IMG/VR virus record: IMGVR_UViG_3300032893_000004 | Location: 91,058 to 155,057 of that record | Direction: 5' to 3' (one strand) | Length of the DNA stretch: 64,000 nucleotides | Origin: a virus | In this document: in pieces, positions 11,404 through 38,400 of the stretch | How the letters are laid out: every line of letters begins with the position of its first letter | How positions within the stretch are numbered: position 1 is the first letter of the stretch | Notes under the pieces: model-generated | Told to the model about the DNA's origin: nothing | What the model saw: only the letters and a program-made list of their open reading frames with translations | The model's database searches: none | Made by a program: the position numbers and the translations under genes

Positions 11404-12795
11404 TTAGAATAAATTGTCCACTATGACATTTTTTCTTGGCTGATAACCGGCAAGCGTCAGGAAGCGGAAGTGAGCTTCCGGGACGGACAAGTCCGCGATT
11501 GCGAGCTTCATGCGGCTGTACGGTGCCAGCTCGTGAAAGCCCCAAGTGTCCTTCTGGACAAGGTAACCGGTCACGAAGCCCGGCGATTTGTTGCCGAGGT
11601 CAGTGAAGGTCACGTTTGCGGATCCGTTTGCTGCGATACGACCGATGTAGTATGCAGTGGAGGCCGACGTCCCGCGATACACGTTGTAGAGCGAAGCTCC
11701 AGCAACGCCTGCGATAACTAGAGCAACTTGTTGGCCAGCTGCGACCGTAACGGGTGCCGAGAACATCTCGACGCCTTCACCGCGTTCATTCTCAGCCGTC
11801 ACGCCGTACACATAAGTGCCAGCGGGGATGAGCGCGCCAGAACCGGACGGCGTACCGACCGCAGTTGCGGGCGGGAGCGGCGAGCCGATCATTGCGCGAA
11901 GAGGCGAAGTTTTGCCGGACAAGAAGCGCGAGTCTTCGAGACCGACCGTTCCGTTGGAAACCCACTGTCTGCGGAGATCCGCGCCGGAAGCGTCTTGTGC
12001 GGAGCCAGCGAGCACGATCCGTTGGATCGAGTTCACGCCCGTACCGAGAGCGACCGAGGTGTTGTAACCGGACAAGATGACCGGGTCAACGAACATGGTT
12101 TCTGCTTTACCCATGTTCATGCGGCTGCGGAGAGCCGAACTTTCGATGATAGGCTGGTCGAGCGAACCGTTCTGCGAGAGAACGACCGACTTGTTCGATC
12201 CGTAAGATGCGAACATCAGATCCTGCGTCGAAACGAGGATGTCCGACATGCGAACTTGCGAATCGAGGCCGAGCATGCTCGGGAGTTCCGGCATCAGAGC
12301 CGGGTTACCGTCGAAGACGCCGTTGTTTGAGAAATCGGCCTTTCCTTTGAAAGAGTCGAATTCGATGTCCGCCGACAATTTGATTGCGGCGTTGTCCGCC
12401 TCACGGTCTTCGGCTTTCTTGCCGTCGATGGTCTCAACCATGTTAGCGGCGATTGTCACACGCTCAACACAGGAGTAGAAACACATCGGAACCGTAGCCC
12501 GGATATAGTCGCCGACGTTCAAGTCGCCGACCGCGCCTTCGCGCTGCGCCGTACCACCGAACCGTCCGTAAGACAGCTGACGGTTAAACTGCACAAGCAA
12601 TGACTTGGCTTTCTTCACCGAGAAGAGCTTCTGGAGCTTGATGTGACTGTCGTCAAACGTCACGTTGTGCATCACAGGCTCAAGGTTTTCGATCTGGAGA
12701 GCAGATCCTTGGACCAACTGCGACGGTGCTACGTTGTAGTTACCGGCCTCCAAGGTTTTCACGAGACTCTCAAGAGTCTTGACTAGATCGTCCAT
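11404..12795 (-). CDS. Major capsid protein (HK97 fold, SPO1-like with inserted Ig-like domain)
   Basis: 463 aa. The overall plan recalls SPO1-type capsid proteins: an N-terminal helix, a capsid core (FSVKKAKSLLVQFNRQLSYGRFG) and a C-terminal Ig/Fn3-like domain at about residues 315-410 (GSGALIPAGTYVYGVTAENERGEG, then LYNVYRG). The chain resumes with HFRFLTLAGYQPRKN. The first 33 residues (LVKTLESLVKTLEAG, NVAPSQL) are shared with the protease/kinase fusion and may be a removable delta-like segment. It lies 3 bases downstream of the scaffold-like gene and ends before a strong hairpin, as expected for an abundant product. Confidence 0.8.
   Translation of the reverse strand: MDDLVKTLESLVKTLEAGNYNVAPSQLVQGSALQIENLEPVMHNVTFDDSHIKLQKLFSVKKAKSLLVQFNRQLSYGRFGGTAQREGAVGDLNVGDYIRATVPMCFYSCVERVTIAANMVETIDGKKAEDREADNAAIKLSADIEFDSFKGKADFSNNGVFDGNPALMPELPSMLGLDSQVRMSDILVSTQDLMFASYGSNKSVVLSQNGSLDQPIIESSALRSRMNMGKAETMFVDPVILSGYNTSVALGTGVNSIQRIVLAGSAQDASGADLRRQWVSNGTVGLEDSRFLSGKTSPLRAMIGSPLPPATAVGTPSGSGALIPAGTYVYGVTAENERGEGVEMFSAPVTVAAGQQVALVIAGVAGASLYNVYRGTSASTAYYIGRIAANGSANVTFTDLGNKSPGFVTGYLVQKDTWGFHELAPYSRMKLAIADLSVPEAHFRFLTLAGYQPRKNVIVDNLF
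12718..12789 (-). repeat. 72-bp segment shared with the protease/kinase gene, capsid copy
   Basis: Codes for the N-terminal part of the capsid protein and aligns without gaps to 22921-22992; by hand count about 52 of 72 bases match. The shared protein pattern is ESLxKxxEAG followed by NVAPSQL. Confidence 0.65.
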
Positions 12796-14717: not shown

Positions 14718-14727
14718 AGATTAGGCT
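14718..14727 (-). promoter_or_regulatory. Post-stop conserved element, copy 2
   Basis: AGCCTAATCT on the minus strand; it contains the TAA stop of the giant gene and ends eight bases before ATG 14709. That is too close for a normal leadered promoter, and no Shine-Dalgarno sequence is present. Confidence 0.5.
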
Positions 14728-17700
14728 CTGCGCTTCTTCGGCGCCTTCGGCTGCAGTTCCAGTACCCAGCACTTCGTGGAAAGCTTGTTCTTCTTGAGAT
14801 TGTTCAGCATCTCTTTGTTATGCTTGGGATAATCTGTATAATCGCACTGCTGGAATCCAAATTTTCTAGGATTCTCGTCGTAGATCTTCCTGAACCCAAC
14901 CGTAAAAGGCTTGGTATTCGGATTGTCCCAGTACTCGCGGTCATATTTCCCACCGTTCGACATGTATCCGCGCAGTTCGGCGCCGTGCATGTAGAGGTGG
15001 GTGATGCCTTGAGCACGTGCGTTTTCGATAACCGCAGACATGGATGCTTCCGTCCAGTCCGACAGGTGAGTGTCGATCTTCTTGGCGTATTGCTTCATGT
15101 CCTCGGCGGTGATGTTCTGCCCATTGATCTTAGTCCCGGCCGGGAATTGGCTCATAAGAGCCTTCAGGTTTCGCCGGAACTTCTGGGCGAAATCCGATTG
15201 ATATTCCTCGATCGCCCACGCGTTCTTGCCTTTGACAGATTGATCGGTGTCAACCCGCGACCAGGAAACCATATGGGGCGTAGTGGGATGCATACCGATG
15301 GACCCGTTCGAGATGCCGTTTGTCTTCTGAAGTAGATGCTGGTATAGAGACCAAAGTTTCGGATCCTGGGACAGCTCCTTCTCGGAAGCCTCTGAATTGT
15401 TGACCTGGACAACCAAGTTAGCTCTGCCAGGTGGATTGTGTCGCTGCAGCTTAGAAGACCATTCCGAATATGTCAGGTGATACTTCTTGGAATTATCGTC
15501 TAGAGCGCGCATAGCTTGCGCGAATTGTTCCGGCATCACCGGCTTATTCTGAGCTGAAGTGAACACGGCCTTCACTGATGGCGGGAGAGACTTCTCTTCG
15601 GCCGGAAACTTCCTCTTGAATTCGGCCCACGCCATACCTTCAGCAGGTATGAGAGCCATGGTCGCTTTCATGCGCTCGTAGTCCTTGTGCTGGAGGCTGA
15701 TATCGCGTAGAACCTTCGACTCGTCCACACTTCCGCTGGCGCCGGCCTTCTGAGATTCCGGCAGCGCCACAGGGATGGCTCGAAACAGCTTGCCGCCGTA
15801 CGTCGGATTGGTCAAAGCCGGGTTGAACTTTCCGCCTGGGGCAAAGAACTTCGGAAACTGCTCGTTGGAAAGAGCAAACAACTCGCCGAGATCTTGTTCC
15901 GACACGTTCGGATGTTGCATGAGTTGAGTAGCCATTTCCGACGCCGTCCTCTTATCGATGTCCTTGTAATTTTGAGCATCGTTCCGGAGAATCGCGTCGG
16001 TGTACATCTTGACAGCTTTTGGCGGAGTAGACTTGTTCGAAAGTATATCGATCGAAGCCTGAGCCATCGCTTCTTTGTTGCGATCGAACATATCGTAGAC
16101 TTGAGCTGCAAGATCTTCGTCGATGTGAGGAGATGACGTCACAGGCTTAAGCTTCATAGCCAAATTATGACCTTCCGAGGGGTGGATGTCGGTGTGCCCG
16201 GAGAACATGTAATCGTGATTTTCCTTGGCATACGCTCGTAAGCTCTCGACGCCGCCGACGCCGTTTTCGACGGCCGTCTGGAACAAAGAGTTCCTAAGAT
16301 CGTGGGCACCGGATTGCGCCAGAAGATCGGTTAGGTCCTTGTGAGACATGTCTGGACCCATATACTTGAGACCTTCTTCCATCGCGTACGTATAGTCGTT
16401 GTGGAATATCTCGTTGTTGTTCTTGAGCTTGACGTACATGTGCAGAAGATTCTTACCGTGGTGAGCGATATCCTCCTTGGACATCTTCGCAAACCAATCT
16501 TTAGACGATTTAACGAACGCGGTCTTCGCTCGGTTCTCATCTTTATTCGTCGATTTCTCGCCGAACTGCTGGTAGTTCGAACCGTTGAGCGCTTCCGTCG
16601 GAATATTCGTCCGATCACGTAGAGCAAAGATCGCATGCGGAGCGGACTTAAACATCTCGCGCCAATCCTGCTCTTCGAAATTTTCTGCGGCTCCTACGAT
16701 ACCTTTGATGGCTTCATGGGTCTTTTCGGGAGCCAATTCTTTTCCGGAAGCCTCCTCGATGGAGTGGTACTCTTTCACCATGTCCATGACCTTGAGAGCA
16801 TCCTCGCGGTCCAGTTGTATGCCAGTCTTGGCGATCTTAGTCAGAATCGACAGCATCGTGGCATGGTCGCGGGACGCTTCTAACTTACCAGTATTGTTCA
16901 GGTCCGGTGCTTGGAGTCGCATATGAGACGCAACCGTTTTTATGTGACCGTGGATCTGTCCGATCATTTCGGAAATTTTGCCTAGCTTGTCTTTCAGATT
17001 CGGCGTTTCTTCCTTGACGCTGGCATTGTGTATGGCTGTGGCGTACTGATCTAGATTGCTCAGGATCTTGTTACGGTGTTCCGCGCCCATAAATGGGGCA
17101 TTCGGCGCAGCCAGATTCGGATCTTTGACCAACGCGTCCATATCACGCATCTTAGCGTGAACCGCGTAGATCAAGTTCCCGTCCATAGCCTGTCCTATCT
17201 GACGGATCAGCGGATTGAATTTTTCGTCCGGCATCGAACGAGCGAGCTTGACGGAATCGTCCGGCTGCACGTACTGGTTATGCTCCATCTTGCTGAACAT
17301 TCTAGACTGATCGATCGAGTACGGGTTCTCTGCGTTCACAGCCAGAGACCGATTCACCAGAATCGAAGAGTTCGCGCCGGTCAAGCGATCTGCGTTCTCT
17401 GCGAGAGCTTGAAGCTTCCACTCCGACGCAGATGCTTCGACGAATCTAGGATCATTGAGCAAGTTATCCGGTATTCGGTCTTCAGATAGTTCCGCGCCGG
17501 CGGCTAATTGATTGGGATCGTTTGGCAACTGTTCCCAAAGACTGACCGCCTGATCGACGTTGCCGGCTTCGGCAGACTGCATAGCCATGTTCCTGAGTTG
17601 AGCATGCGCGAACGGAGCGATCTTAGGATCCAGAGTCTGCTTCTTGATGTAGTTCAAGACGAATTCGTTCTTTTGCTGTTCTTCCGGTCCAGATTCTGAA

Positions 17701-20700
17701 GGCGTAAACGTCGATGCGAGATTGTTCATGAACTTTTCTCGCACCAATCCGCGAGGATCGTTTATCCCTTCCTGGGAGATCTTGTTTTCGAACGTCTTCG
17801 CAATTTCCAGCACCGCAGCCGGTTCGGTATTGGAATTCAGCTGGGACGACACGCCGGCTATCTGACGAGCGTTGAGAGTATTCGGCTGAGCCGCAGCTCT
17901 GGCCAAAGCACTGATGCCTTCGCTCGACAAGATCCCGTGATCAGAAAGCTGGATCATAGTATCGTAGTCTTTTTGATCAATGGCGTTGCGTTCGATCTGC
18001 TTGCCCATGTTAGCCGGCGCCATATTGCGCGATTTTAGAGCTACGTACGCCGACAACATCGTTCCGTTCTTATCTTCCGGGATGGCGTAGGATGCGGATG
18101 CCAAATGTTCAAGGACACTTTTTGCGATGCGCTTTCTGTCGTCCTGCGTCAGATCATCGCCTTGCGCTGGAGCCGAGAGCGCTTGCGCCAACATAGTCGA
18201 CAACTCGCCCGGACTCTTCGTACGATACAAGTCGATCAGGTTGTTCAATCGAGAATTATAGATACCCAGCGTTTCGTCTCTCATCGATGAGCGACGTCCG
18301 TGCTCGTGCGCCTCCGGGTTCAGCATAGACGAGTTGATCTTTGCGGCCAGATGCTCCAGATCTTCCGGTGTGTGATTTCCGCCGGAGACCCACGAATCGA
18401 GAGTTCTTTGACGCAGCTTAGGATTGCCTATCGCCAAGATGTCTCTGACGGAGTTAGCTTGAGTCATCTGCTGCAGTTTTTCTGGCGAGAGCAGATTATC
18501 GGCCAGAGCTTGGTGCTTTACAAGTTCGCCGTCTTTACCTGGCATATCAGCTAGAAAATCTAGGTTTGCACCAGCCGCCTTCAAAGATGATAGGAACCGA
18601 TCGTCGTGATACCCCTGCTTCTGACGAGTCATCAACGAATACCACTTCTCAGCGATCGGATTGTCTGTCTCTGAATCGCTGAAAGACGGCATCGACGCGA
18701 CCCGTCCGTGTAAATAATTGACGAGGTCTTCCGCCTTCTGGCGGCCGATGGCCTTTTTGTCCTCCGACTCGTAGCTGGAGACATGCACCCCACGACTCAG
18801 TTGATTCATCTTCCGCGCGAGCAGATTGTAGGCAAGCGGTGCCTTGCCTGAAGCGGCCGCGTGATCGATCAGCGCATCGTCTCCTGGCTTGGTGTACATC
18901 TCATCGGGGATATTATTTAGCAACCCTTCGTCGGACATGTGCCCAGGTTGGCCTTCCGGTACTGAAATAAGCTGATCCAATACAGATCTGTCATTCGGCG
19001 ATTCAGGATCCAAGTGGCTTACAGCCTTCGCCTGATAATTCTGGAAACTGCCGCCGATCCTATCGTTATCTCCCGGATCGTTGTACATGCCAAGCACGGC
19101 GTTGTGGAATATGTCCGGTCTGTGGTTCTTAACATGTTCGACTTCATCTTTGATTAGTCGCTGCTTGTTATCAGTCGACAACATGTTGAAAGCGCGGTCC
19201 CACGACGCCTGAGGAGCGTTAGCGCGAACAACTGATATGGCCGCCTTCTGCGAACCGCTGTTCAAGATCGGTTCGTATTTTTTGTTCTGCTCATCCTCCG
19301 GAAGGGAATCGTAGCGCTTAAAATAATCTCCCGCTCCGATCTTATCCATAAGTTCGCCGTTCCGGGCAATCTCATGGAACAGATATTCCGGCATATTGTT
19401 AGATTCAAACAGCTTTCGTGCCATGTGAGCGGAATCATCGAACAGCTCTGGGCGACCGCCATGGTCGTATACTTGCGTGTTGTTTGCGATATATTCCTGA
19501 CGTTTTCGGAACATGTCGGCCAAGAAATCTGGATCGGCATCGTTCAGATTTATGTTGGACTGAACCTCGGAAAGATATCCTGGATTTTTGAGAATAGCAG
19601 CTTGGGCGTTTTTGTCGCCGTTCACCGCCAGATGCGAGATGGCCGTTACGATCCTGGAGTTGTTGTCCCGCTGGTTCCTGCCCATCACGTCGTTAGAATG
19701 CGATACGACCATCTGGTTCTTCGGAACTTTGTCGTCGAAGATGTTAGCGAGATCTTTAGAATTAGCCTCGCGGATGGCAGACGGTACGCGCTGATCGAGC
19801 GCCAAGTTGAACTTACTGCTTATGACGTTCTCCGGACGCTCCTTGGTCTTCTTGGAGATCTCATCTATGTTATCGCCCTGATACTTCTCGTGAGCCTTCG
19901 CGAAGATGGCTTCCTGATCCATCTTGGGCAACTTATCGAACTGCTGCTGAAACTTCGGATCATGGTACACGTTCGAGAGACTGGTCGCACCGGACTTTAG
20001 TCCTTCCTTCACCTGCTGTTCAGCCACCAACGGATGCAGCCGTGCGGCGTCTTGAACAGTCTTTGCCCGACGTTTCAAACCTTCGTCAACCACATCCATG
20101 TCTGCGTTCGGATGATTCAGAGCCTTGACGGCGACTTCCTGGTTCTTGTGGTTTACGATCTCTTTCAGCACGTCGGGCGGTACGGACTGGGCTTGAAGAA
20201 TATCGCGTGCAGAATCTAGGTCCTTCGAGCCTTTTTGCCAGTAATCGCGGACGTCCGCTTCGTCTGCCATAGGATGCTTGATCGCTTTGTTGAAACCTTT
20301 TTGGATCAGAGCCTTAACCTGCGGCTTCGTCAGCGATGGGTTCTGAAGAAGACTGTCGACCTTGTTACGGGTCTCCCAGTCGCCTGAATCTTTGAACCGC
20401 TTTATCATACCGTTGATGGACTCTTGCGGCAGACGCGGATTCTCGATGGCACTATCGCGGGAATTCTTGCCTACCGCGTACTTTGCCAGCAGCGCCGGGT
20501 CGACGTTCTTGTGGCTTAGCAGGGCATCTAAACGCTGGTTGGCGTAATAGTCATGTCTATCGCCGGACTTGTTAGCTTCGTACCACTGGTGAATCTTGTT
20601 TAACTGATCCTTCGATAGATCTTCGCGTCCTTCCACCAGATCGTTGAGAGCTTCGTGCGGATCATGCTTCGAAGCCGCAAACGCGTCGATAGTCCGATCG

Positions 20701-21296
20701 AGAGTTTCCGGAGTGTGCCGCGAACTGTTGATCAGACCTTTCTTGGCAAAATCTAACTCTCGGGAATGCTGCTTCTGGCCATTCTCATCCAGTTCGTTCG
20801 GATCTTGCTGAGACCGACCTTTGAAGAATTTCATATAGTAGTTCGGGCCAAGATGCTTGTAGGCATGAGGTACATCGCCGGAAGCTAGAACTTTCTCCGC
20901 CATTCCTTTCAGCTGATTCTCGTCCAAGATACCAGAATCGGCCATTTCTGCGTGCAAATCCGACGAAGGATTCTCCGGATTGAAAGTCTTCAAGACAAAG
21001 TCTTGCTTCAACTCTTTAGGAGTATTCGGATGCTTGAGGATATTCTCCATCAAGTCGTTGCGCGGTTCGGCGTCGCCGGTAGCAGCCGAGGTCGAGTCAG
21101 GAGTTACCGGCGCCATCGTGTGATGATAAAGCTTATCGATCGAATGAGCTGACAGATTGGGATGAGAAGTCACTTCCTTCATCAGGTCGATGTTGTCAGC
21201 CTGCTCGTGTTCGGGCAGCTGGATATGATGTTCCACGTGGGCGTGCAAGGTATCTGCCGGCGTGTCGGGCGCTAAGTGTTTGATCTCGTCGCTCAT
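14721..21296 (-). CDS. Giant repeat-rich virion/polyvalent protein (2191 aa)
   Basis: The largest gene of the window. Residues about 1-1900 are alpha-helical with many short units of the type HPNxSxxxLxxL and HKNxDPALLAKYA, resembling HEAT/leucine-rich variants. The last 300 residues form a separate domain with AWAIEEYQSDFAQKF, close to the VEEIQSDW motif seen in large polyvalent phage proteins, then THLYMHGAELRGYMS. It has no signal peptide or membrane helix. It lies in the head module, overlapping its upstream neighbour by four bases, so it is probably packaged and perhaps injected. Function is inference. Confidence 0.6.
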   Translation of the reverse strand: MSDEIKHLAPDTPADTLHAHVEHHIQLPEHEQADNIDLMKEVTSHPNLSAHSIDKLYHHTMAPVTPDSTSAATGDAEPRNDLMENILKHPNTPKELKQDFVLKTFNPENPSSDLHAEMADSGILDENQLKGMAEKVLASGDVPHAYKHLGPNYYMKFFKGRSQQDPNELDENGQKQHSRELDFAKKGLINSSRHTPETLDRTIDAFAASKHDPHEALNDLVEGREDLSKDQLNKIHQWYEANKSGDRHDYYANQRLDALLSHKNVDPALLAKYAVGKNSRDSAIENPRLPQESINGMIKRFKDSGDWETRNKVDSLLQNPSLTKPQVKALIQKGFNKAIKHPMADEADVRDYWQKGSKDLDSARDILQAQSVPPDVLKEIVNHKNQEVAVKALNHPNADMDVVDEGLKRRAKTVQDAARLHPLVAEQQVKEGLKSGATSLSNVYHDPKFQQQFDKLPKMDQEAIFAKAHEKYQGDNIDEISKKTKERPENVISSKFNLALDQRVPSAIREANSKDLANIFDDKVPKNQMVVSHSNDVMGRNQRDNNSRIVTAISHLAVNGDKNAQAAILKNPGYLSEVQSNINLNDADPDFLADMFRKRQEYIANNTQVYDHGGRPELFDDSAHMARKLFESNNMPEYLFHEIARNGELMDKIGAGDYFKRYDSLPEDEQNKKYEPILNSGSQKAAISVVRANAPQASWDRAFNMLSTDNKQRLIKDEVEHVKNHRPDIFHNAVLGMYNDPGDNDRIGGSFQNYQAKAVSHLDPESPNDRSVLDQLISVPEGQPGHMSDEGLLNNIPDEMYTKPGDDALIDHAAASGKAPLAYNLLARKMNQLSRGVHVSSYESEDKKAIGRQKAEDLVNYLHGRVASMPSFSDSETDNPIAEKWYSLMTRQKQGYHDDRFLSSLKAAGANLDFLADMPGKDGELVKHQALADNLLSPEKLQQMTQANSVRDILAIGNPKLRQRTLDSWVSGGNHTPEDLEHLAAKINSSMLNPEAHEHGRRSSMRDETLGIYNSRLNNLIDLYRTKSPGELSTMLAQALSAPAQGDDLTQDDRKRIAKSVLEHLASASYAIPEDKNGTMLSAYVALKSRNMAPANMGKQIERNAIDQKDYDTMIQLSDHGILSSEGISALARAAAQPNTLNARQIAGVSSQLNSNTEPAAVLEIAKTFENKISQEGINDPRGLVREKFMNNLASTFTPSESGPEEQQKNEFVLNYIKKQTLDPKIAPFAHAQLRNMAMQSAEAGNVDQAVSLWEQLPNDPNQLAAGAELSEDRIPDNLLNDPRFVEASASEWKLQALAENADRLTGANSSILVNRSLAVNAENPYSIDQSRMFSKMEHNQYVQPDDSVKLARSMPDEKFNPLIRQIGQAMDGNLIYAVHAKMRDMDALVKDPNLAAPNAPFMGAEHRNKILSNLDQYATAIHNASVKEETPNLKDKLGKISEMIGQIHGHIKTVASHMRLQAPDLNNTGKLEASRDHATMLSILTKIAKTGIQLDREDALKVMDMVKEYHSIEEASGKELAPEKTHEAIKGIVGAAENFEEQDWREMFKSAPHAIFALRDRTNIPTEALNGSNYQQFGEKSTNKDENRAKTAFVKSSKDWFAKMSKEDIAHHGKNLLHMYVKLKNNNEIFHNDYTYAMEEGLKYMGPDMSHKDLTDLLAQSGAHDLRNSLFQTAVENGVGGVESLRAYAKENHDYMFSGHTDIHPSEGHNLAMKLKPVTSSPHIDEDLAAQVYDMFDRNKEAMAQASIDILSNKSTPPKAVKMYTDAILRNDAQNYKDIDKRTASEMATQLMQHPNVSEQDLGELFALSNEQFPKFFAPGGKFNPALTNPTYGGKLFRAIPVALPESQKAGASGSVDESKVLRDISLQHKDYERMKATMALIPAEGMAWAEFKRKFPAEEKSLPPSVKAVFTSAQNKPVMPEQFAQAMRALDDNSKKYHLTYSEWSSKLQRHNPPGRANLVVQVNNSEASEKELSQDPKLWSLYQHLLQKTNGISNGSIGMHPTTPHMVSWSRVDTDQSVKGKNAWAIEEYQSDFAQKFRRNLKALMSQFPAGTKINGQNITAEDMKQYAKKIDTHLSDWTEASMSAVIENARAQGITHLYMHGAELRGYMSNGGKYDREYWDNPNTKPFTVGFRKIYDENPRKFGFQQCDYTDYPKHNKEMLNNLKKNKLSTKCWVLELQPKAPKKRRA

Positions 21297-21892
21297 TTTT
21301 CACCGTACTTTAGCCAACGCATCAGCTCTTTTGTCCAGTCTTGATCTTCCGCACCGGAGAGGTTAGCTTCGTCGATGGCCGGATCATATTCTCTGGAAGC
21401 CATTTCCCGATCGTCGTCGTGCTTCTGCTGATCTTTTTCAACCATACCGAGAACTGTATCGTTGATCTTAGCCTTGGGCGAATGGAAGTCCGGCGGCGGA
21501 TTGGCCGGCACAACCGGTAGGGCCTGCTGAACGTCTGTTTTGCGAGCTACTTTGATCTCGCCGCGAGTGAAAGCATTGAACAGCGCGTCCTTCTCTTCCT
21601 GCGGCAACAGGTGACCGTTGAGGATGACCGTGTGGCCGTCCGAGGTGATCTCTACCACGTCGCCGTTGTCCATGACGTACCGTAAAAGATTGACGGTGGC
21701 CTTGGTCGGCTCCGACATAGTCAGGTGCGACGAATTTCCGACAACCTGCTGCATCTTCGGATAACTGTTCTGGAACAACTTAGGCAATTGGCCGTTTGTA
21801 TTGTCTACGACAAAGTCGAGCGCATCTCCGTCCGTGCGGATCTCCGCGAGCGGTATTTCGGAATAATCTGATTTGATGACTACGACTTTCAT
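21293..21892 (-). CDS. Hypothetical protein (199 aa) between the giant protein and the protease/kinase
   Basis: Beta-rich N-terminal half (MKVVVIKSDYSEIPLAEI, then DGHTVILNGHLLP) and an acidic, flexible C-terminal half (KDQQKHDDDREMASREYDP). It overlaps both neighbours by four bases, a sign of coupled expression with them. No family recognised. Confidence 0.6.
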   Translation of the reverse strand: MKVVVIKSDYSEIPLAEIRTDGDALDFVVDNTNGQLPKLFQNSYPKMQQVVGNSSHLTMSEPTKATVNLLRYVMDNGDVVEITSDGHTVILNGHLLPQEEKDALFNAFTRGEIKVARKTDVQQALPVVPANPPPDFHSPKAKINDTVLGMVEKDQQKHDDDREMASREYDPAIDEANLSGAEDQDWTKELMRWLKYGEK

Positions 21893-23589
21893 GCTACTCT
21901 CTTCGCTCTTTCTTCGGCGTTAACCTTGGTCATATGATTCGCTGCGTGATCAAACATCTGTCCTATGCTCATGTCAGAACGATCGGCGAGTTTTTGATAA
22001 TATTTCAATCCAGAAACCGCCGTTTTTATTGTAGCAGGATCGTGACCTTGATCCAACATCTTTCCGGCAAGAGTTTTAGCGTCTATGCCCTTGAGCCACT
22101 TCGCAGCTTCCGGATGAAGCTTATCGTTCCCTTTTTCGGCAGAAATAAGGTCAGGTTCCGTAAAACCACCGTTCCAACCGAGAAAAGCATCGTCGTGATC
22201 TATGCTCATCAGATGACCTTTAGGATGAACCAACAAATTGCCGTTATGCCGGTCACCTACACCAAGAATATGATTCGCGATAATCAACTTGTGAATGTGG
22301 CCATCCTTCTCGTGTTTCCGAAAAGCGTTGGCTAGAACATCTCCGCTTTGCAAAGGAGTCTTTGCTTCTTTTATGTATTCCATGGCTGATATGGCATTGC
22401 CGCCGTGGACGTTCGGATGTGCTACTTTTGTGACAATCGGCACATACTTTCCGAGTCCAAAAACGTCTTTCATGATCTGAAAGTGATTGTGCGCATTCGT
22501 GTATTCTTTGTCCGCCATACGATTTCCGACTGGACCTTCCGGCCTATGCTTAACCAAGACGTCCCGTCCTTGATCGTTACGAAGATGCAGGATTTTCTTT
22601 TTCCGACTGGAATGCACAGACTCGGAAGCTGGATCGTAGTAAAGTCCCTCTACCAGCGACTTCTGGTCATCGTCGGACGACGGATGGGCGTGCTTAGCTC
22701 CGATGCGCACCAGCTTTGGAGACGGCATGTTCTTCTTGAGCGCCAGCTCTTCCGCCAGCTTCTCGAAGTGGCCGATGTAGTCGTCTGACACCTCTGGTAG
22801 AGCGCCTTTCAGCACTTCCTTGAGAGGACGCTTGCGGTCCCAGTCGCGAACAGCGGCCTTCACGCGATTTCTCTGGAATCCGCTGATATGCTCGCGGGTA
22901 AGTGCGGCTTGACCGGTCAGCTGGGACGGAGCTACGTTGCCCATACCAGCCTCTATGCTCTTCGTGAGACTCTCGACGGCCTTGTGCAGATCCAGTATCG
23001 GATCCTTGGGGATGAACATATCATCGAGGATAATTGAATCGATTTCGATTAAATGATCGACTCGATCCGACACATCTGAAATATATTTAGCTATTGAGAT
23101 CGATTTTGGATCTTCAAGTAATCCGGCTATGGCTGCCTTATTGCACGCGCGTAAGGTGCATGCCACGCGCCTTCCGACAGTTTCTTTTAAGATGTAGTCA
23201 TCCCGCTCAAGCGTCGCACCCTCAATACTGAAGTTTGTAAGTAGCCGTTCGCCCTGTTTTGCATAATAACGTATCATTGCGGCGACTGCGACTGCGCCAG
23301 GATGATTTACATCATCGTCATCGAACAATTCTGAAATAATATAAACAAACGGCTTTTTTACTATGTTCCAATAATATCTTTGACGATCATTTTCACAATC
23401 TTCTTTTTTAAGAATTTTTCTTGCATAGATAATTGCCCCGATGATATCGTCGGATTTATTCGAATGCTCCCAATTTAATACCCCTCGGCCTTCGACGAGA
23501 TCTGATATGTCGTGGTTGGCAACAACGAGTAACTCACCTGAGCTGTCGATTGTTTCAACTGTTGCACATCCGTCCAGTTTGAGGCCCAT
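21889..23589 (-). CDS. Prohead-protease-like domain fused to a PI3K/PI4K-like kinase domain
   Basis: 566 aa. ATG 23589 is chosen because TTTGGAGGT lies seven bases upstream. Residues about 1-185 resemble phage prohead core proteases: histidine in VLNWEHSN, serine in LLTNFSIEGATL. About 205-240 is the segment shared with the capsid protein. About 320-566 is kinase-like: VLVKHRPEG (ATP lysine), a glutamate in KEYTNAH, AMEYI (hinge), GVGDRHNGNLLV (catalytic loop) and LMSIDHDDAF (metal site). The first 190 codons are AT-richer than the rest. It lies between head morphogenesis and structural genes. Domain calls are by motif; whether both are active is unknown. Confidence 0.65.
   Translation of the reverse strand: MGLKLDGCATVETIDSSGELLVVANHDISDLVEGRGVLNWEHSNKSDDIIGAIIYARKILKKEDCENDRQRYYWNIVKKPFVYIISELFDDDDVNHPGAVAVAAMIRYYAKQGERLLTNFSIEGATLERDDYILKETVGRRVACTLRACNKAAIAGLLEDPKSISIAKYISDVSDRVDHLIEIDSIILDDMFIPKDPILDLHKAVESLTKSIEAGMGNVAPSQLTGQAALTREHISGFQRNRVKAAVRDWDRKRPLKEVLKGALPEVSDDYIGHFEKLAEELALKKNMPSPKLVRIGAKHAHPSSDDDQKSLVEGLYYDPASESVHSSRKKKILHLRNDQGRDVLVKHRPEGPVGNRMADKEYTNAHNHFQIMKDVFGLGKYVPIVTKVAHPNVHGGNAISAMEYIKEAKTPLQSGDVLANAFRKHEKDGHIHKLIIANHILGVGDRHNGNLLVHPKGHLMSIDHDDAFLGWNGGFTEPDLISAEKGNDKLHPEAAKWLKGIDAKTLAGKMLDQGHDPATIKTAVSGLKYYQKLADRSDMSIGQMFDHAANHMTKVNAEERAKRVA
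22921..22992 (-). repeat. 72-bp segment shared with the capsid gene, protease/kinase copy
   Basis: Encodes ESLTKSIEAGMGNVAPSQL between the protease-like and kinase-like domains. It aligns without gaps to 12718-12789 in the capsid gene. Similarity at both DNA and protein level suggests a duplicated capsid-targeting or cleavage segment. Confidence 0.65.
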
Positions 23590-24338
23590 TATGCGTACCT
23601 CCAAATGTATCCTCTATGCGTTTTTGTGACTCCGCAACAAACACCGCGTACCTTCGATGCGCAACATCCAATAGATTCAGTATCTTTAGGGCAGTCCCAT
23701 ACCTTTACTGTCAATCCCGTCAGCGGATCGATCTGCAAAACTTTTTTGGCTCTTTTTAATTGAAGTTCTCGCTTGAAAATTGGGTCCAGACGCAATTTAT
23801 TTAGTCTCGCTTCATTCGCTGCGCTAAGAGCTTCGCTGCGATCATGGGTCGACCAGTATTTTTCGGCTCCGGCCATGCGATTTTGTTTGCCGGAATCAGA
23901 CATTTTCCGCAATTGTTCTTTTCCAGCATCTGTGGCTGCCCACAGTTTACGTTCTTCTGACTTTTTCGTACGTCGGTCTTTGTCCCAGCTCGCGATTGCG
24001 CTGGCAGAAAGTGTCTTTTTCAATTCTGATGTGTATATGCATCCTTCTTTCCCGCCATGTTTAATGTTGTATCCCGAGGGACGAAGTGAGCCAAAACATA
24101 CTATAAAATGTCTCTCCATGCGATCCAAGGAAGTCTGATCTATATATGTAATCAACTCTTCCTTTTCAAAAGATTCGCGCCCATATTTTTTTATGGCATT
24201 CTTGATTGGCCTAGAAGTATTTTTGGTCGCACAACAATGGTCTGCCCAACGCTCGGCCATTGAGCGAGTAGTCTGGCCGATATAGATCTTACCGTTCACA
24301 TTGTTCGTGATTTTGTAAATGATTCCGTATCGTTGCAT
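23589..24338 (-). CDS. GIY-YIG homing endonuclease (free-standing)
   Basis: 249 aa. N-terminal GIY-YIG nuclease: YGIIYKITNNVNGKIYIGQT, with the downstream arginine (RSMAERW) and a glutamate in RMERHFIV. The C-terminal part has NUMOD-like DNA-binding repeats (RAKKVLQIDPLTGL, then CCASKVRGVCCG). ATG 24338 is preferred over one 22 codons earlier, which lies within the upstream gene. AT-richer than most neighbours, as is the adjoining 5' part of the protease/kinase gene, which suggests recent transfer. It sits between head morphogenesis and protease genes, a typical free-standing site. Confidence 0.85.
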   Translation of the reverse strand: MQRYGIIYKITNNVNGKIYIGQTTRSMAERWADHCCATKNTSRPIKNAIKKYGRESFEKEELITYIDQTSLDRMERHFIVCFGSLRPSGYNIKHGGKEGCIYTSELKKTLSASAIASWDKDRRTKKSEERKLWAATDAGKEQLRKMSDSGKQNRMAGAEKYWSTHDRSEALSAANEARLNKLRLDPIFKRELQLKRAKKVLQIDPLTGLTVKVWDCPKDTESIGCCASKVRGVCCGVTKTHRGYIWRYA

Positions 24339-24345
24339 TCTCGTA

Positions 24346-24355
24346 AGATTAGGCT
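24346..24355 (-). promoter_or_regulatory. Post-stop conserved element, copy 3
   Basis: AGCCTAATCT; its first base is the last base of the TGA of the head-morphogenesis gene, and it ends seven bases before the GIY-YIG ATG. No Shine-Dalgarno sequence lies between. Confidence 0.5.
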
Positions 24356-25239
24356 CATCCGTGATTACATCCTGGTCCGTGTTCATGCTCTCTCTCGTGT
24401 TCAATATTCATAGCTAAATACTCATCGTAACTCACGAATTCGCTCTTAACAAGAGGAACTGCATCTGGCACTTCTTCGGCTTTCTTCAGCTTCCAGTAGT
24501 CCTTGTGGTAGTCATACCCAAATTCGACGAACTCGATCACGCCAGCATCGTTGAAGCCGAAGTTCGGCGGGACAAAGCTCATCACGTGTCGGCAGCGCGG
24601 GTGAAGCGGCGACTGATGCGGAGTCTTTCCGTCCCATTCTTTGGGCTTGAAGTATCCCTCCTGGATCTGTGACAACTTGTACGGCTTCGGCTTCCGTATC
24701 GCAGCGGAGTCGTGGTACATCGCCTTGCAGTATTTACAAATCTTGTGGTCGCAGACTCCTAGAAAAACGACGGTCGGATCTTTGACACCGATGTCAGACG
24801 CAAGCTTGCCGATACCCTCGCGCGAGGCATATGTCTGCACGATGCGCGCTTCGTTCGAGACGAGCAGATCGACGTACTGACCTGCCTTCTCGAAGTGCCC
24901 GCGAATAGATCGAATCGCTTCAGATGGGGTCTTCGCTTTAGCCACGTCTGCCAGAATGTGGTTCTTGATCTTGAGCTGCTGTGAATCCATGTAATTACTC
25001 GTAATATCAGCCAAATTTTCGATATTCTTCTGATCAGGCTTAGAATGGGCTCCGTACATGGTCTTCAGAGTGAAGTTGTACAGGCCTTCGATCGTATGGA
25101 GCGGATCAGCTCGGCGAACGACTTCGAAGTACAGCTTCGGCCCTTTGAACATCTTGCCTAGCAGCTTAGCCTTCGTTCCTTCGAACAGAGACTCGATCCG
25201 CTGGATTATGATGTTCCTCTGGGCGTCGGTGAGCTTCAT
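24355..25239 (-). CDS. Head morphogenesis protein (SPP1 gp7 / Mu gpF family)
   Basis: 294 aa. The C-terminal half has the family's cysteine/histidine pattern: CDHKICKYCKAMYHD (about residues 162-176) and HPRCRHVMSFVPP (about 213-225), preceded by the SNEARIVQTYASREG helix. These minor head proteins join the portal and help head assembly or DNA ejection. It is directly downstream of the portal gene with a one-base overlap, the standard order. The tail is His/Glu-rich (HEREHEHGPGCNHG) and may bind metal. Confidence 0.8.
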   Translation of the reverse strand: MKLTDAQRNIIIQRIESLFEGTKAKLLGKMFKGPKLYFEVVRRADPLHTIEGLYNFTLKTMYGAHSKPDQKNIENLADITSNYMDSQQLKIKNHILADVAKAKTPSEAIRSIRGHFEKAGQYVDLLVSNEARIVQTYASREGIGKLASDIGVKDPTVVFLGVCDHKICKYCKAMYHDSAAIRKPKPYKLSQIQEGYFKPKEWDGKTPHQSPLHPRCRHVMSFVPPNFGFNDAGVIEFVEFGYDYHKDYWKLKKAEEVPDAVPLVKSEFVSYDEYLAMNIEHEREHEHGPGCNHG

Positions 25240-27440
25240 CAGCTCCCCTTCTTTTTACCGTCTTTGAGGATCCTCGCCATGGCGGCGACCTCTTTCGCAG
25301 ATTCGCGCTTGAAGTGGGCCATCGTGGAGTCTACCAGCTGCTTGTGCTGGCGCATCAGGCGACGCGAGATTCTATCGTGGTTATTCTGGATGGTCTTTTC
25401 GAGCAGCATGTAGCTATTCGTCGACCACGCCATATTCTTGGCCGAGATATCCTTCACGATGTCGATCGCTTTTTCGGCTTTAGAAGTCTGCTCAGGCGGC
25501 ATGCTGCCGCCTCCGGAGTCGCTGCTGTCATCGTCCGACCCGGAATCCTTGTTGTCCGAGCCAGAATCTTTGTTATCACCTTCGTCGTCCTGGATAGGGT
25601 TTCCCTGCGCGTCAGCCGTGATACCTTGCTCGGCCAGTGCCTGCTGCTGCATCATCTGCTGAGCTTGCATCTGCTGCTGCATCGCTATCTGAGCTTGCTG
25701 GAGGATCATCTGCTTGTTCTGGAACCAGAACGGATCGCGGATGTACTGGTAGCGAGGATCAGACGCAGCGCCTTTCACTTTGAAGAAGTTTTCGAGGATC
25801 TGACCAACAGTCAGGTACTTGTCCATGACTGCCTGGAACTGCGGGTTAAGCGGAAAGTCGCCGCCCATCTCGACCGGAACCGGGTTCTTCTCGACCTGTT
25901 CCATGATCTCGTTGTAGTTCATGTGAACGGCCATGTCCTGCTGCAGACGGGTGTTCTCTTTTTCCGGAGAATCCTTATCCAAACCAGTCAGAACGATCTG
26001 ATGCGTCTTAGCCAGTTCCGGATCCACGAATGGGAGGATATGGGTATTCAAAAAGTCTTGGATATCGGATAAGAGCGGACGGAGGCCCACATCGCGGGCA
26101 GCCGTAAGCTTCCACTCGTTGTCCGATTCTGAAAGTGCCTGAGTATTCGTGCCCCGAGCAAGGTGAGCGTAGCCAGGCAATTCTTCCGGCGACATCTGGA
26201 AGGCCGAGAGGATCACCCGAGCGTTGTTGTCCATCAGGTACTGGAATTCTGCGTCGCGGCCGGAGTTATCGATCGCTTCCCAGTTCAGCTTATCCTCGGA
26301 TCCGATCGCGAAGACGGGCATGCGCCACGAGTTTTGAACGGAGTTGATCGACTGATGGAATTGGAGGCGAATACGCTGTGCTGCTGCTTCGTCCATGGAG
26401 TCGGACTGGAACACGAGCATGCCCTTCGAAGCGCGGCCGTGCTGGAAGTACAGCTTGTTATGGACAGTGATGTTGATGTGGGTCGTGATCGCGTTGAGCG
26501 CCTGATCGATCGGAGTAAGAGGGTAGCCGTTATACTCGATGCCTGTCGTCGGATAAAGATTGTAGACGACCATCTCTTCTTCGGTGAATGTCTGAACCGG
26601 CTTTCCTTCGATGACCTGAACGTAGCGGTACTCGTCCTTCTTGTACTTCTCGATGTCGATCTTCTTGTTCTTGATCTGCTGCAACTGACGAATAGCTTCT
26701 TGGCGAAGCGACTGGTCGTGTTCTTTCTGCGGCAAGATTTTCAACATCGTGCCGGCGTCGGAAGCGCGCCATGCGTATAGTTCTCGTTTGCCTGTTTCCG
26801 GATTCGTCCACCAGCTACGTTCGCAGGCGAGACGACCGAAGGCAAGTCCATCGCGGGTCACCAGCTTCAGGAATTGAGACAAGTTGACTTGATCAAGCTC
26901 GCCGTCAAGAGTGCCGCGACCGCACTGCCAGAACTTCTTCTTGGCTGCGTCGATTCTCTCTTGAATCTTGCGCTGATCTTCTTCAGAACGCTTGGCGTTC
27001 TTGTCCATGTCTTGAAATTCGAAGCCTACACTGAAGCGGTCCGTCCTAGGACGACCGAAGGATGATATATGGTTCGAACGAGCTTGAAGAATCTCGTTGA
27101 CCAACTCGTCGCCGCCCGGCCCGCAGATACGCTTGATGATATGATCAGGCGTTAGATTCTGTTTTAGCCGGTAAAATCCGAGAGCACCGGAATAGTTAGC
27201 ATGCGGGTCAACCTGGAACGACATTCGTTCGAGTTGAGCTGCCTGCATAGCGTTCTGAGCTTTGATAGACTTAACAATCTCACCGAGAACACCGGTATCA
27301 GCTGTAGTCACTTCCTCTTTTTCGTTGGAAAGTTCCCGCGCCGCCGCGTCAGCTTTAAGAAGCTTCAGAGCGTTCGGATCCAGAGCGACTATCTCTTGCC
27401 GTGGGCGATAACGCTTCTTTTTTTCTTCTTCGTTTGCCAT
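25239..27440 (-). CDS. Portal protein (733 aa)
   Basis: Large portal-type protein. The N-terminal arm is charged and Lys/Arg-rich. The core contains NEILQARSNHISSFGRPR and YAWRASDAGTMLKILPQ, with a long central helix region, and the C-terminal region is Gln/Met-rich (MQQQMQAQQMMQQQ, about residues 585-610). An Asp/Ser-rich linker (DDEGDNKDSGSDNKDSGSDD) and a helical tail follow. Portals form the 12-mer at the packaging vertex. It follows the terminase and is followed by the head-morphogenesis gene, as expected; it is larger than typical portals because of the tail. Confidence 0.8.
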   Translation of the reverse strand: MANEEEKKKRYRPRQEIVALDPNALKLLKADAAARELSNEKEEVTTADTGVLGEIVKSIKAQNAMQAAQLERMSFQVDPHANYSGALGFYRLKQNLTPDHIIKRICGPGGDELVNEILQARSNHISSFGRPRTDRFSVGFEFQDMDKNAKRSEEDQRKIQERIDAAKKKFWQCGRGTLDGELDQVNLSQFLKLVTRDGLAFGRLACERSWWTNPETGKRELYAWRASDAGTMLKILPQKEHDQSLRQEAIRQLQQIKNKKIDIEKYKKDEYRYVQVIEGKPVQTFTEEEMVVYNLYPTTGIEYNGYPLTPIDQALNAITTHINITVHNKLYFQHGRASKGMLVFQSDSMDEAAAQRIRLQFHQSINSVQNSWRMPVFAIGSEDKLNWEAIDNSGRDAEFQYLMDNNARVILSAFQMSPEELPGYAHLARGTNTQALSESDNEWKLTAARDVGLRPLLSDIQDFLNTHILPFVDPELAKTHQIVLTGLDKDSPEKENTRLQQDMAVHMNYNEIMEQVEKNPVPVEMGGDFPLNPQFQAVMDKYLTVGQILENFFKVKGAASDPRYQYIRDPFWFQNKQMILQQAQIAMQQQMQAQQMMQQQALAEQGITADAQGNPIQDDEGDNKDSGSDNKDSGSDDDSSDSGGGSMPPEQTSKAEKAIDIVKDISAKNMAWSTNSYMLLEKTIQNNHDRISRRLMRQHKQLVDSTMAHFKRESAKEVAAMARILKDGKKKGS

Positions 27441-27443
27441 TCA

Positions 27444-29095: not shown

Positions 29096-29105
29096 AGATT
29101 AGGCT
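29096..29105 (-). promoter_or_regulatory. Post-stop conserved element, copy 4
   Basis: AGCCTAATCT beginning within the TAA of the large terminase gene and ending 23 bases before ATG 29072. Here a separate Shine-Dalgarno-like GATGGAG lies between. Confidence 0.5.
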
Positions 29106-31012
29106 TAGTCATCGCTACCCTCTTCGGTTCCAAAATCCCATATAACGTTCCCGTCAGCCGACCTACCTTTCAGACCAGCGCTGGTGTCGCCGCCTTCTAG
29201 TGCCTGCCTCTTCTGGGTCTGCCAGTCCTGAAAATGTTTCTCTGGAGTCGGAGTCTGAACGAAGAACTGCTCGAACGGGTTAGGCGGCCCCTTCGGAGGA
29301 GGAGTGTTGACTTTCGACACTTTGTACAGGTTCTGAGCTTGGTATCTGACCGAATCCGCTATATCAGCGAATTCACCGTCGTCCGGATCCTTCGTCAAGT
29401 TACCGAGTGTATCGAGTTTGAAGCAGTGCTCCGCGAACATCTTAATGAACAGTTCGGTCCTGTCGTGCTTGATGACCTTCAAGAATCGGCGGTTACGGGC
29501 ATTGATGATTCGCCCGCGAACGGCCGAGATGCCGCCGAATACGTCCTTAGTGAACTTCTTGCACGGCATCCGCGAGTTCTTGAATTCTTTGATGAACATC
29601 GGCTCCGACGTGTCCGCGAACCACTGCACGATTCGGTACATATCGCGGACTTCTATCGCGAGCGCCATCATCTGAGCAAATTCCAGCCCAGGCACGGAAT
29701 AAGCGTCGACGAGCCACCATTCACCGTTTGGCATCTTGGCAGAAACAGAGATCGCGAAAGCGTGCGTAGTTCCCCAATCCACGCCCGCGTAGAACCGAAT
29801 ACCTTTACTTAGCATGAACTGGATCAGATCCGGGAAAGTAAGACCTTTCGGGGCCGCGTCGCCGGTGTACACTTCCCACGCTTGTTTCACGCTGTACGTA
29901 TTACCGGAGCCGTCAGCGGCGTCCACGAAGCGCGGGTACACCATGCCGGCCGAAGACGGCTTCCAGCACATCAGCTGGGCTTCGGCTAGATCTGGGTCCT
30001 TATCGAACTGCGAGATCGTAAAGTCTATAGGCTTCCATAGGCCGCCCTTGTCTTTTTCGGAGCGGTGCGCCAGGCGAGTGCGGCAGACTGGAAGAAGCGG
30101 ACACTTGAGGCATCCTTCGTACGCCTCTGTACGATCGTACCCTTCCTTCTCCTTCTCGATCAGGTTGGCATATTCCACTTCCGTGATCGTACGAAGCGGC
30201 AAGTTCTTGGCAACGTACACGAAGGTTTTTGGTTTTTCAGGCATGTGTCGCTTCGGCTCGCACTTCTCGGTGATGTCGATGATATTCCATCGAAAGACTC
30301 GGTACCCGTTCTTCTGCGCCTTCTCCATCTCGCGCGTAAACAAGCCGCCGGGGAACTTGAGGGTCGACGTCTTGATCGTAACGGGATGCTGACCGTTGAA
30401 TACTCCTGGGATGTATTCCGCTTCTTTGTACGCTCGAAGCTGCTCCTTAGAGCGTATCGTATCGATCTCGTCGATTGTGAAGATGTTGGTGTGAGCTGAG
30501 TTCGCGCCGGTGACGGTGCAAACGATGATCTTCATATAAGCATCTTTTTCTTCAGGCGTGCCAGGGTTGATCTTGAGACTGATCTCTTTGGAGTTCGAAG
30601 AGTCCAGTTCGATCTTGTGATACTCAAGATATGGTCTGATCTTGTCGATGAACATGGAAATATAATTCTGGGCCGCCGTAGCTTGCGGAACGATCGCTGC
30701 CATGTGGGCTATGGAAGCCCCGAATTGAACCATCATGATGATCGCGAATGCCGCCTCCGAAAGTGTCTTGTACGACTCCCGAGACGAGATCACGATCGTG
30801 CTGGGCGACTTGTGACCTTCGTTTGCCTCGTACATCTTGTACGTGTCGTAGAGCCAGTGAACTGGGCTGGAGTTTGAATCGGGATCGACCCAAGAATCCG
30901 GGAAATCCAGATCGAGGAAATTATGAATCCACGTCTTGGCATGTTTTGGGCTCGTGAACCGCTTTAAGAAAGTCTGAGCTAAGTGTGGATCTACCTGAGA
31001 CTTAGAGTTCAT
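29105..31012 (-). CDS. terL: Terminase large subunit
   Basis: 635 aa. The ATPase domain has a deviant Walker A (VISSRESYKT, about residues 74-83) and Walker B IFTIDEID (about 178). The nuclease domain begins FYAGVDWGTTHA (about 401) with the first catalytic aspartate, and continues to EFADIADSVRYQ with the last acidic site. A four-cysteine-like insert (CLKCPLLPVC) lies between the domains. The enzyme pumps DNA through the portal and cuts it. It overlaps the 152-aa gene upstream by 11 bases. Confidence 0.85.
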   Translation of the reverse strand: MNSKSQVDPHLAQTFLKRFTSPKHAKTWIHNFLDLDFPDSWVDPDSNSSPVHWLYDTYKMYEANEGHKSPSTIVISSRESYKTLSEAAFAIIMMVQFGASIAHMAAIVPQATAAQNYISMFIDKIRPYLEYHKIELDSSNSKEISLKINPGTPEEKDAYMKIIVCTVTGANSAHTNIFTIDEIDTIRSKEQLRAYKEAEYIPGVFNGQHPVTIKTSTLKFPGGLFTREMEKAQKNGYRVFRWNIIDITEKCEPKRHMPEKPKTFVYVAKNLPLRTITEVEYANLIEKEKEGYDRTEAYEGCLKCPLLPVCRTRLAHRSEKDKGGLWKPIDFTISQFDKDPDLAEAQLMCWKPSSAGMVYPRFVDAADGSGNTYSVKQAWEVYTGDAAPKGLTFPDLIQFMLSKGIRFYAGVDWGTTHAFAISVSAKMPNGEWWLVDAYSVPGLEFAQMMALAIEVRDMYRIVQWFADTSEPMFIKEFKNSRMPCKKFTKDVFGGISAVRGRIINARNRRFLKVIKHDRTELFIKMFAEHCFKLDTLGNLTKDPDDGEFADIADSVRYQAQNLYKVSKVNTPPPKGPPNPFEQFFVQTPTPEKHFQDWQTQKRQALEGGDTSAGLKGRSADGNVIWDFGTEEGSDD

Positions 31013-38347: not shown

Positions 38348-38375
38348 CGCTCACGGAGGACTATAGCAGGACATG

Positions 38376-38384
38376 TGGTATAAT
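38376..38384 (+). promoter_or_regulatory. Extended -10 promoter TGGTATAAT for groEL
   Basis: TGGTATAAT 16 bases before the groEL ATG, followed by TTGGAGG. No -35 hexamer is recognisable 16-18 bases upstream. Confidence 0.55.
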
Positions 38385-38400
38385 GCAATTGGAGGTTCAT

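Follow-up and report, generated by a model that had tools for sequence, protein, structure and literature searches.

A predicted prohead protease fused to a PI4K-like kinase shares a segment with the major capsid protein in Mx1 and related phages

A protease-kinase fusion lies between the portal and major capsid protein genes

The virus record IMGVR_UViG_3300032893_000004 of IMG/VR comprises 155,057 bases, and the window analyzed here is the 64,000-nucleotide stretch from 91058 to 155057 of that record; coordinates below are window positions, and L numbers are our labels for loci. Between the genes for the portal and the major capsid protein (MCP) lies a 566-amino-acid open reading frame (ORF) at 21889-23589, predicted to join an N-terminal prohead protease domain to a C-terminal kinase domain with a PI4K-like fold (Table 1). 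The first-pass annotation had proposed such a fusion in one uninterrupted frame, and the frame was indeed open throughout on the minus strand; the plus-strand frame of the same coordinates has stops. The motifs on which that proposal relied were all present, NWEHS (residues 39 to 43) and NFSIEGA (119 to 125) for the protease and VLVKH (344 to 348), AMEYI (402 to 406), GDRHNGN (445 to 451) and SIDHDDAF (462 to 469) for the kinase. Terminase, portal, fusion ORF and MCP are encoded on the same strand, and the gene order is identical in Myxococcus phage Mx1, where a protease-kinase gene likewise sits between the portal and MCP genes.

An ORF of this length is not a chance occurrence: when the window was shuffled 20 times by mononucleotide, no stop-free run exceeded 288 codons. 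Nor is it a single odd contig or an assembly chimera: the loci L060 and L061 encode proteins of 565 and 567 amino acids with the same two-domain layout, and Mx1 has it too. The fusion is thus a recurrent family rather than a single oddity.

Table 1. Features of the fusion gene and its neighborhood (window coordinates)
Feature	Position	Strand	Basis or remark
Protease-kinase fusion ORF, 566 aa	21889..23589	minus	ATG at 23589, TGA at 21891-21889
GGAGG, ribosome-binding-like, 8 nt 5' of fusion ATG	23598..23602	minus	Read by eye
Predicted prohead protease domain, residues 1-165	23095..23589	minus	Fold, conservation in relatives
Capsid-protein-like segment, residues 200-241	22867..22992	minus	21/42 identical to MCP residues 3-44
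Glu233 codon, last residue of L-x-x-E (LTRE)	22891..22893	minus	Predicted cut site, inferred
Helical stretch after capsid-like segment, residues 237-286	22732..22881	minus	Alignment, model
Predicted PI4K-like kinase domain, residues 296-566; K347, D446, R447, N451, D464	21892..22704	minus	Pfam, model, alignment
Major capsid protein (MCP)	11404..12795	minus	phrog_752
MCP N-terminal segment (residues 3-44) common to fusion protein	12664..12789	minus	Sequence match
GIY-YIG homing-endonuclease-like ORF directly upstream of fusion	23589..24404	minus	Stop overlaps fusion ATG by one base
Head-morphogenesis/minor-head-like ORF, weak	24355..25239	minus	phrog_4728 E 0.0059, phrog_115 E 0.035
Portal protein	25239..27440	minus	Pfam and PHROG matches
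Terminase large subunit	29105..31012	minus	PHROG match

The N-terminal domain is predicted to have the fold of T4 gp21

Structure prediction followed by fold search had been chosen beforehand as the test that could overturn the two domain calls, and it upheld both folds. For the protease we used an alignment (A7) of 25 of the 84 family ORFs described below, with Mx1 kept out of all structure predictions; a combined full-length alignment (A5) misplaced fragments and was excluded from structure prediction. The resulting model of residues 1 to 298 had a mean pLDDT of 79.3 and a pTM of 0.56, with residues 1 to 160 mostly above 90. Residues 1 to 147 of it aligned to T4 gp21 (5jbl_B; Z 10.8, rmsd 2.2, 118 residues) and to the herpesvirus assemblins of VZV (Z 9.8), PRV (9.1) and HCMV (8.3). 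Foldseek alone returned herpesvirus proteases, with PRV protease the best (E 5.2e-4), and T4 gp21 was not among the 50 Foldseek matches listed. Searching the PDB by sequence alone, with the protease alignment as query, yielded no usable match (the top one was a penicillin-binding protein at E 0.1). The match to phrog_1028 ("head maturation protease") was weak for the whole ORF (E 0.022) and for residues 1 to 298 (E 0.0029); 15 of the 25 aligned relatives matched it at E ≤ 0.01, the best at 3.6e-14.

Residues N39, H42, S121, E123 and G124 were invariant in the 25 aligned relatives, as were D27, T145 and N150. H42 and S121 would be the catalytic His and Ser expected of a gp21-like protease, with the invariant E123, T145, N150 and D27 all candidates for the third catalytic residue, and the model places the domain with the gp21/assemblin kind. 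With T4 gp21 itself the window protease has in common the predicted fold, the conserved His and Ser, and a gene position between portal and MCP.

The C-terminal domain is predicted to have a PI4K-like fold

The fusion ORF matched Pfam PF00454 (PI3_PI4_kinase) at 42.8 bits (cut-off 27.1; E 7.8e-11). The kinase alignment (A6) holds 16 of the 19 kinases in the family, leaving out the truncated kinases of L081 and L084 and that of Mx1; 15 of the 16 matched PF00454 at E ≤ 0.01, and the fused kinase of Mx1 fell below the cut-off (15.3 bits). The model of residues 296 to 566 (mean pLDDT 88.2, pTM 0.88) had PI4-kinase type II beta as its best match (4wtv_A; Z 18.3, rmsd 3.4, 238 residues), which bears out the PI3K/PI4K-like call, followed by CtkA (Z 13.9), ATR/ATM (about 12), actin-fragmin kinase (11.4) and Vps34 (11.4). 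The kinase profile also matched PI4KA (E 3.4e-5) and Vps34 (E 4.9e-5). K347, R447, N451 and D464 were invariant in all 16 aligned kinases, and D446 in all but L096, which has His.

Judged by the model, the kinase is nearest to type II PI4-kinases (PI4KII) in fold. With PI4KII, CtkA, actin-fragmin kinase and Vps34/PIKK it shares the fold and the D-R-H-x-x-N and I-D motifs, but just 12 to 16% identity. Animal PI4KII enzymes have a palmitoylated Cys cluster; residues 296 to 566 contain 0 Cys, so we do not place it in that group and file the kinase only under "PI4K-like fold." Because Helicobacter CtkA is a protein kinase, the fold is compatible with a lipid or a protein substrate. Two other assignments found little support: the HipA-like family, whose PF07804 matched only 1 of the 16 members, and weakly, with no HipA among the 50 fold matches listed (PF07804 also matched one other Mx1 protein), and rickettsial RisK1 (NCBIfam; cut-off 800 bits), which the kinase resembled at motif level only, scoring 19.1 bits.

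Using our own Nei-Gojobori script, we obtained dN/dS values of 0.016 to 0.154 for the kinase and 0.008 to 0.150 for the protease in five non-independent pairs drawn from L067, L070, L071 and L072. Both domains are therefore under purifying selection in these four relatives.

The phage has a second PI3K/PI4K-like ORF, not fused to a protease (591 aa; PF00454 32.4 bits, E 1.1e-7), at window positions 1-1094 on the minus strand; it runs off the window and occupies 90376-92151 of the record. As a query it had no match in the phage records. Mx1 also has a second, likewise not protease-fused; it is 619 aa long, scored 34.4 bits and matched GNAT weakly.

The protease and the MCP share a segment

When the fusion protein was searched against its own genome, it returned, besides itself, the N terminus of the MCP (fusion residues 200 to 239, E 1.1e-4). 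Compared directly, the two proteins were identical at 21 of 42 positions (blastp E 2e-7), with a local score of 90, where the highest of 300 shuffles reached 59. We then compared proteases with the MCPs of their own genomes in 54 pairs, 52 from the family (near-copies included) and two from Herelleviridae. In 51 of the 54 the score exceeded the best of 100 shuffles, some by small margins (e.g., 63 versus 60 in L095), and all 51 matches fell within the first 75 amino acids of the MCP.

Two motif hidden Markov models (HMMs) gave the same picture. The first, built from 25 MCP N termini and run on 2,599 ORFs, found below E 0.01, besides MCPs, only 38 protease-family rows (copies included); the next other ORF had E 0.21. 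With the second, built from 26 MCPs of the other clade and run on 6,264 ORFs, 43 of the 84 family members scored better than the best ORF that was neither family nor MCP (E 0.042). Neither model found anything in shuffled ORFs. The best nonfamily match of both was an 81-aa ORF in L034 (8712-8957), which lies just upstream of the protease gene and has the MCP-like stretch AGSSLQVEDLGAVLTTVT.

The segment is usually closed by L-x-x-E, which a loose pattern picked up in 68 of the 70 motif hits from the family; E233 and L230 are nearly invariant in A7, and the Mx1 protease-kinase has GGSALQSE at this place. Its pLDDT in the protease model was low, and it is therefore probably flexible. On this pattern, the L-x-x-E segment is plausibly a site that the protease cuts in both the fusion protein and the MCP.

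The SPO1-like Herelleviridae proteases (phrog_1028) Bacillus phage Troll gp75 (269 aa) and Brochothrix phage A9 gp86 (258 aa) also contain a segment like that of their own MCP (score 57 versus 44 in Troll, L119; 136 versus 62 in A9, L120), but unlike the window fusion they have no cargo. In A9 the protease copy and the MCP copy hardly differ, reading KSMTTGYEHGGTDQTDGSALRRQSL and KSMTTGYNHGGTDQFNGQALRRQSL.

The protease is a chassis for exchangeable cargo

Mx1, an isolated phage that infects a harmless soil bacterium, was the sole match of the window protein among 50,697 phage records (41% over residues 3 to 287, E 3e-61). Its 1,239-aa "putative prohead protease" has the kinase near the C terminus, beyond a stretch of about 600 amino acids. 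Scans of IMG/VR yielded 41 and 61 partly overlapping loci and genome_contigs yielded 2, giving 84 distinct family ORFs after removal of duplicates, several of them truncated. The kinase alone, or a two-row kinase alignment, found nothing in viral_contigs, and the full fusion protein found nothing in genome_contigs.

Cargo was labeled with our own HMMs. The kinase was carried by 19 of the 84 ORFs, Mx1 included, and GGDEF by 9, with no ORF (0/84) carrying both; a transglycosylase-like domain was labeled in 17, GNAT in 2 and HEAT in 1, and 29 were "none/other," at least 8 of these being truncated. The kinase HMM was seeded with the window protein, L060, L061 and Mx1, so its E values for these four are circular; independent support came from tblastn to the Mx1 kinase (E 8e-5 with the window query, 7e-20 with L071) and from the Pfam matches in 15 of 16 kinases. 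Pfam confirmed GGDEF in L006, L007 and L074, the three of nine scanned, and HEAT in L035 (E 1.4e-33), and placed GNAT just above the cut-off in L018 and just below it in L102. The label "transglycosylase-like" reflects an ESSG motif; Pfam did not confirm it in L017, the sole member scanned. HEAT repeats were seen fused to the protease in L033/L035. A middle domain of about 430 amino acids had no Pfam family match in Mx1, L006 or L007.

The cargo changes repeatedly on the protease tree. Trees of the protease domain made by a quick method from 69 and 72 of the 84 ORFs required, respectively, at least 15 and 15 changes of cargo label, 6 and 7 between kinase and not-kinase, and 4 and 5 between kinase and GGDEF. 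Many forks are unsure, 21 of 68 inner branches being open; taken by themselves, the starred branches of the 72-row tree require 3 changes for the kinase and 3 for GGDEF. The same GGDEF module is free in one phage and tethered in another: in Mx1 it has a gene of its own, two positions further downstream, and in L006 it is fused to the protease. Kinase and GGDEF cargo lies C-terminal to the capsid-like segment.

Two further observations concern the proteins of these relatives. The protease ORF of L063 (8986-13269) has one or more intein-like insertions (Pfam Intein_splicing, 36.9 bits versus 35.8). In the head region of Mx1 (L001) that also contains the protease-kinase, a 1,479-aa protein (24404-28843) with GNAT, ART-PolyVal and NUDIX domains is a typical polyvalent protein.

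Other genes in the window

A GIY-YIG ORF directly upstream of the protease gene was also found in the distant phage L003 (146-766), as if this spot attracted homing endonucleases. Two genes after the fusion, a 2,191-aa ORF (14721-21296, minus strand) has HEAT-like repeats by eye and no match in Pfam or NCBIfam. The window also encodes a Cpn60 chaperonin (38197-40191; PF00118, 126.7 bits) and a DNA polymerase III alpha-like protein with a PHP domain (48393-52067).

A head polyprotein that may deliver its own cargo

We propose that the fusion protein is a head polyprotein. Its gp21-like protease would be built into the prohead, the place of action of such enzymes, with the PI4K-like kinase riding as C-terminal cargo. 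Once active, the protease would trim the N terminus of the capsid protein and cut its own chain at the matching L-x-x-E segment, yielding a protease of about 25.8 kDa (residues 1 to 233) and a kinase piece of about 37.1 kDa (residues 234 to 566). The latter would remain in the head, exit with the DNA, and early in infection phosphorylate a protein or lipid of the host. The same protease chassis bears other cargo in other phages. We put the probability that the protease carries the kinase into the prohead, cuts itself at L-x-x-E and lets the kinase be ejected at about 0.5.

Precedents are described in the excerpts of the papers cited. T4 gp21 frees itself by an N-terminal self-cut, and it cleaves the propeptide off the MCP and trims Alt and other packaged proteins (PMC9958956, PMC5694885); the SPN3US and phiKZ proteases remove their own C termini, SPN3US gp245 at AQE-203 (PMC5694885). 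T4 Alt, once packaged and trimmed, is ejected (PMC5694885, PMC5512222), short T4 capsid-targeting peptides take foreign proteins into heads (PMC9958956, PMC5694885), and a Bacillus phage head protease was detected in virions (PMC3601020). Because the enzyme is joined to the protease through a copy of an MCP segment, these T4 and SPN3US precedents lead us to expect prohead entry, self-cleavage and an enzyme left inside. A capsid-protein-like segment within the fusion likewise makes a head location of the kinase more likely.

Several points weigh against this proposal. We know of no ATP supply in phage heads, and kinase action inside the head is therefore unlikely. The motif score of the window protein itself was modest (E 0.0031 with the first HMM, 0.0057 with the second), the pairs from L006, L062 and L103 gave no match above shuffles, L007 and L100 have no L-x-x-E, and the A9 segment has Q in place of E. 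The cut motifs given in the excerpts for T4 (ITE, LTE) and SPN3US (AxE) differ from L-x-x-E (PMC5694885). The segment occurs in the cargo-free proteases of Troll and A9, so freeing cargo cannot be its sole purpose, and the transglycosylase-like relatives have their cargo N-terminal to it, so that a cut there would leave that cargo unfreed. Given these two observations, the segment is probably an old protease-maturation or docking feature that incidentally parts the protease from kinase or GGDEF cargo.

The same observations could mean that the segment is a docking arm, acting like the N-arm of the MCP in the shell lattice or scaffold, with the kinase staying joined to the protease and being carried or lost together with it. 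Its presence in cargo-free Herelleviridae, its position before a Zn-ribbon tail and not before the cargo in the transglycosylase-like clade, and the missing Glu in A9 all suit such an arm. The retention of L-x-x-E (68/70), the near invariance of E233 and L230, and a low-pLDDT, probably flexible stretch such as a cut site would have argue for cleavage instead, and we regard a purely docking role as unlikely.

The kinase might also be delivered with the DNA for counter-defense, inactivating a host defense factor or nucleotide signal, and not for metabolic rewiring. This reading draws on the rapid swapping of cargo on the tree and on the overlap of the cargo classes with polyvalent proteins that, in the excerpted text, are thought to serve early conflict (PMC5512222); no target or defense link turned up in this analysis, in which padloc was not searched, and we consider it unlikely.

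Alternatively, the kinase could act late in the producing cell and modify proteins of the capsid, scaffold, tail or host, with the fusion merely setting its dose and its place near assembling heads. The late-gene position fits, and to our knowledge ATP can be drawn from the cytosol only before packaging. The second, unfused PI3K-like ORF in the same phage, counted for this explanation, shows that fusion is not needed. However, the swapped GGDEF, GNAT and transglycosylase-like cargo has no common assembly role and fits the ejected effector kinds listed for polyvalent proteins in the excerpts (PMC5512222); we consider an action confined to the producing cell improbable. It is very improbable that the kinase domain is an inactive remnant serving as a scaffold-like spacer: L096 has His for the catalytic-loop Asp, but the catalytic residues are otherwise invariant (16/16, and D446 in all but L096) and the kinase dN/dS is low (0.016 to 0.154).

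Relation to known packaged and ejected enzymes

The likeness we propose is to phiKZ gp175 and SPN3US gp245, from which a C-terminal extension is self-removed; the giant-phage protease described in the excerpts has 263 aa and a short tail, whereas the tail of the window protein is an enzyme (PMC5694885). T4 Alt is packaged, protease-trimmed and ejected onto host proteins, much as we propose for the kinase, but it is made apart from the protease and bears a targeting peptide of its own, whereas the window cargo is part of the protease (PMC5694885, PMC5512222). MuF-fused effectors of the Mu gp30 and SPP1 gp7 type also put swappable enzymes on a head-assembly carrier (PMC5512222), MuF in their case and the protease here; no MuF domain was matched in the fusion ORF, where PF00454 was the only Pfam family at E ≤ 1.

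Polyvalent proteins (Iyer et al. 2017) combine peptidase and effector domains and are predicted to be packaged and ejected, and the excerpts list GGDEF, GNAT, ART, lysozyme and kinase domains among them (PMC5512222). The window fusion has, like them, at least two unrelated enzymatic domains and a head-gene context. Their assemblin-like peptidases are described there as always C-terminal and their kinases are of another kind, with "PI3" occurring 0 times in the text (PMC5512222). The window fusion has a different architecture: its peptidase is N-terminal and by gene position a head protease, and its kinase is PI4K-like.

We found no report of a protease-kinase fusion in the open-access literature, a search outside which most subscription journals and preprints fall, and a search of the same literature for the name of Myxococcus phage Mx1 gave nothing. 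If the kinase is ejected, it would be the first phage-ejected PI4K-fold kinase known to us. Most known enzymes that phages eject are either proteins on their own, such as T4 Alt, or MuF or polyvalent fusions; in the present case the carrier would be the essential head protease, and the fusion would be a further form of the ejected-effector and polyvalent-protein theme. That the whole is a polymorphic, self-releasing delivery system, in which a segment taken over from the capsid protein, or common to both, marks the cut and any enzyme behind it is loaded and ejected to seize host signaling, we advance tentatively, at somewhat less than even odds.

The MCP-shared segment offers a testable cut-site rule, and since Herelleviridae proteases and MCPs also share it, the rule could extend across a large phage family. 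If true, sequence alone would tell which enzymes Mx1-like myophages and their relatives bring into the cell. PI4K-fold kinases and cyclic di-GMP synthases would then count among phage-delivered enzymes, with the diguanylate cyclase found elsewhere in the family as ejected cargo in its own right.

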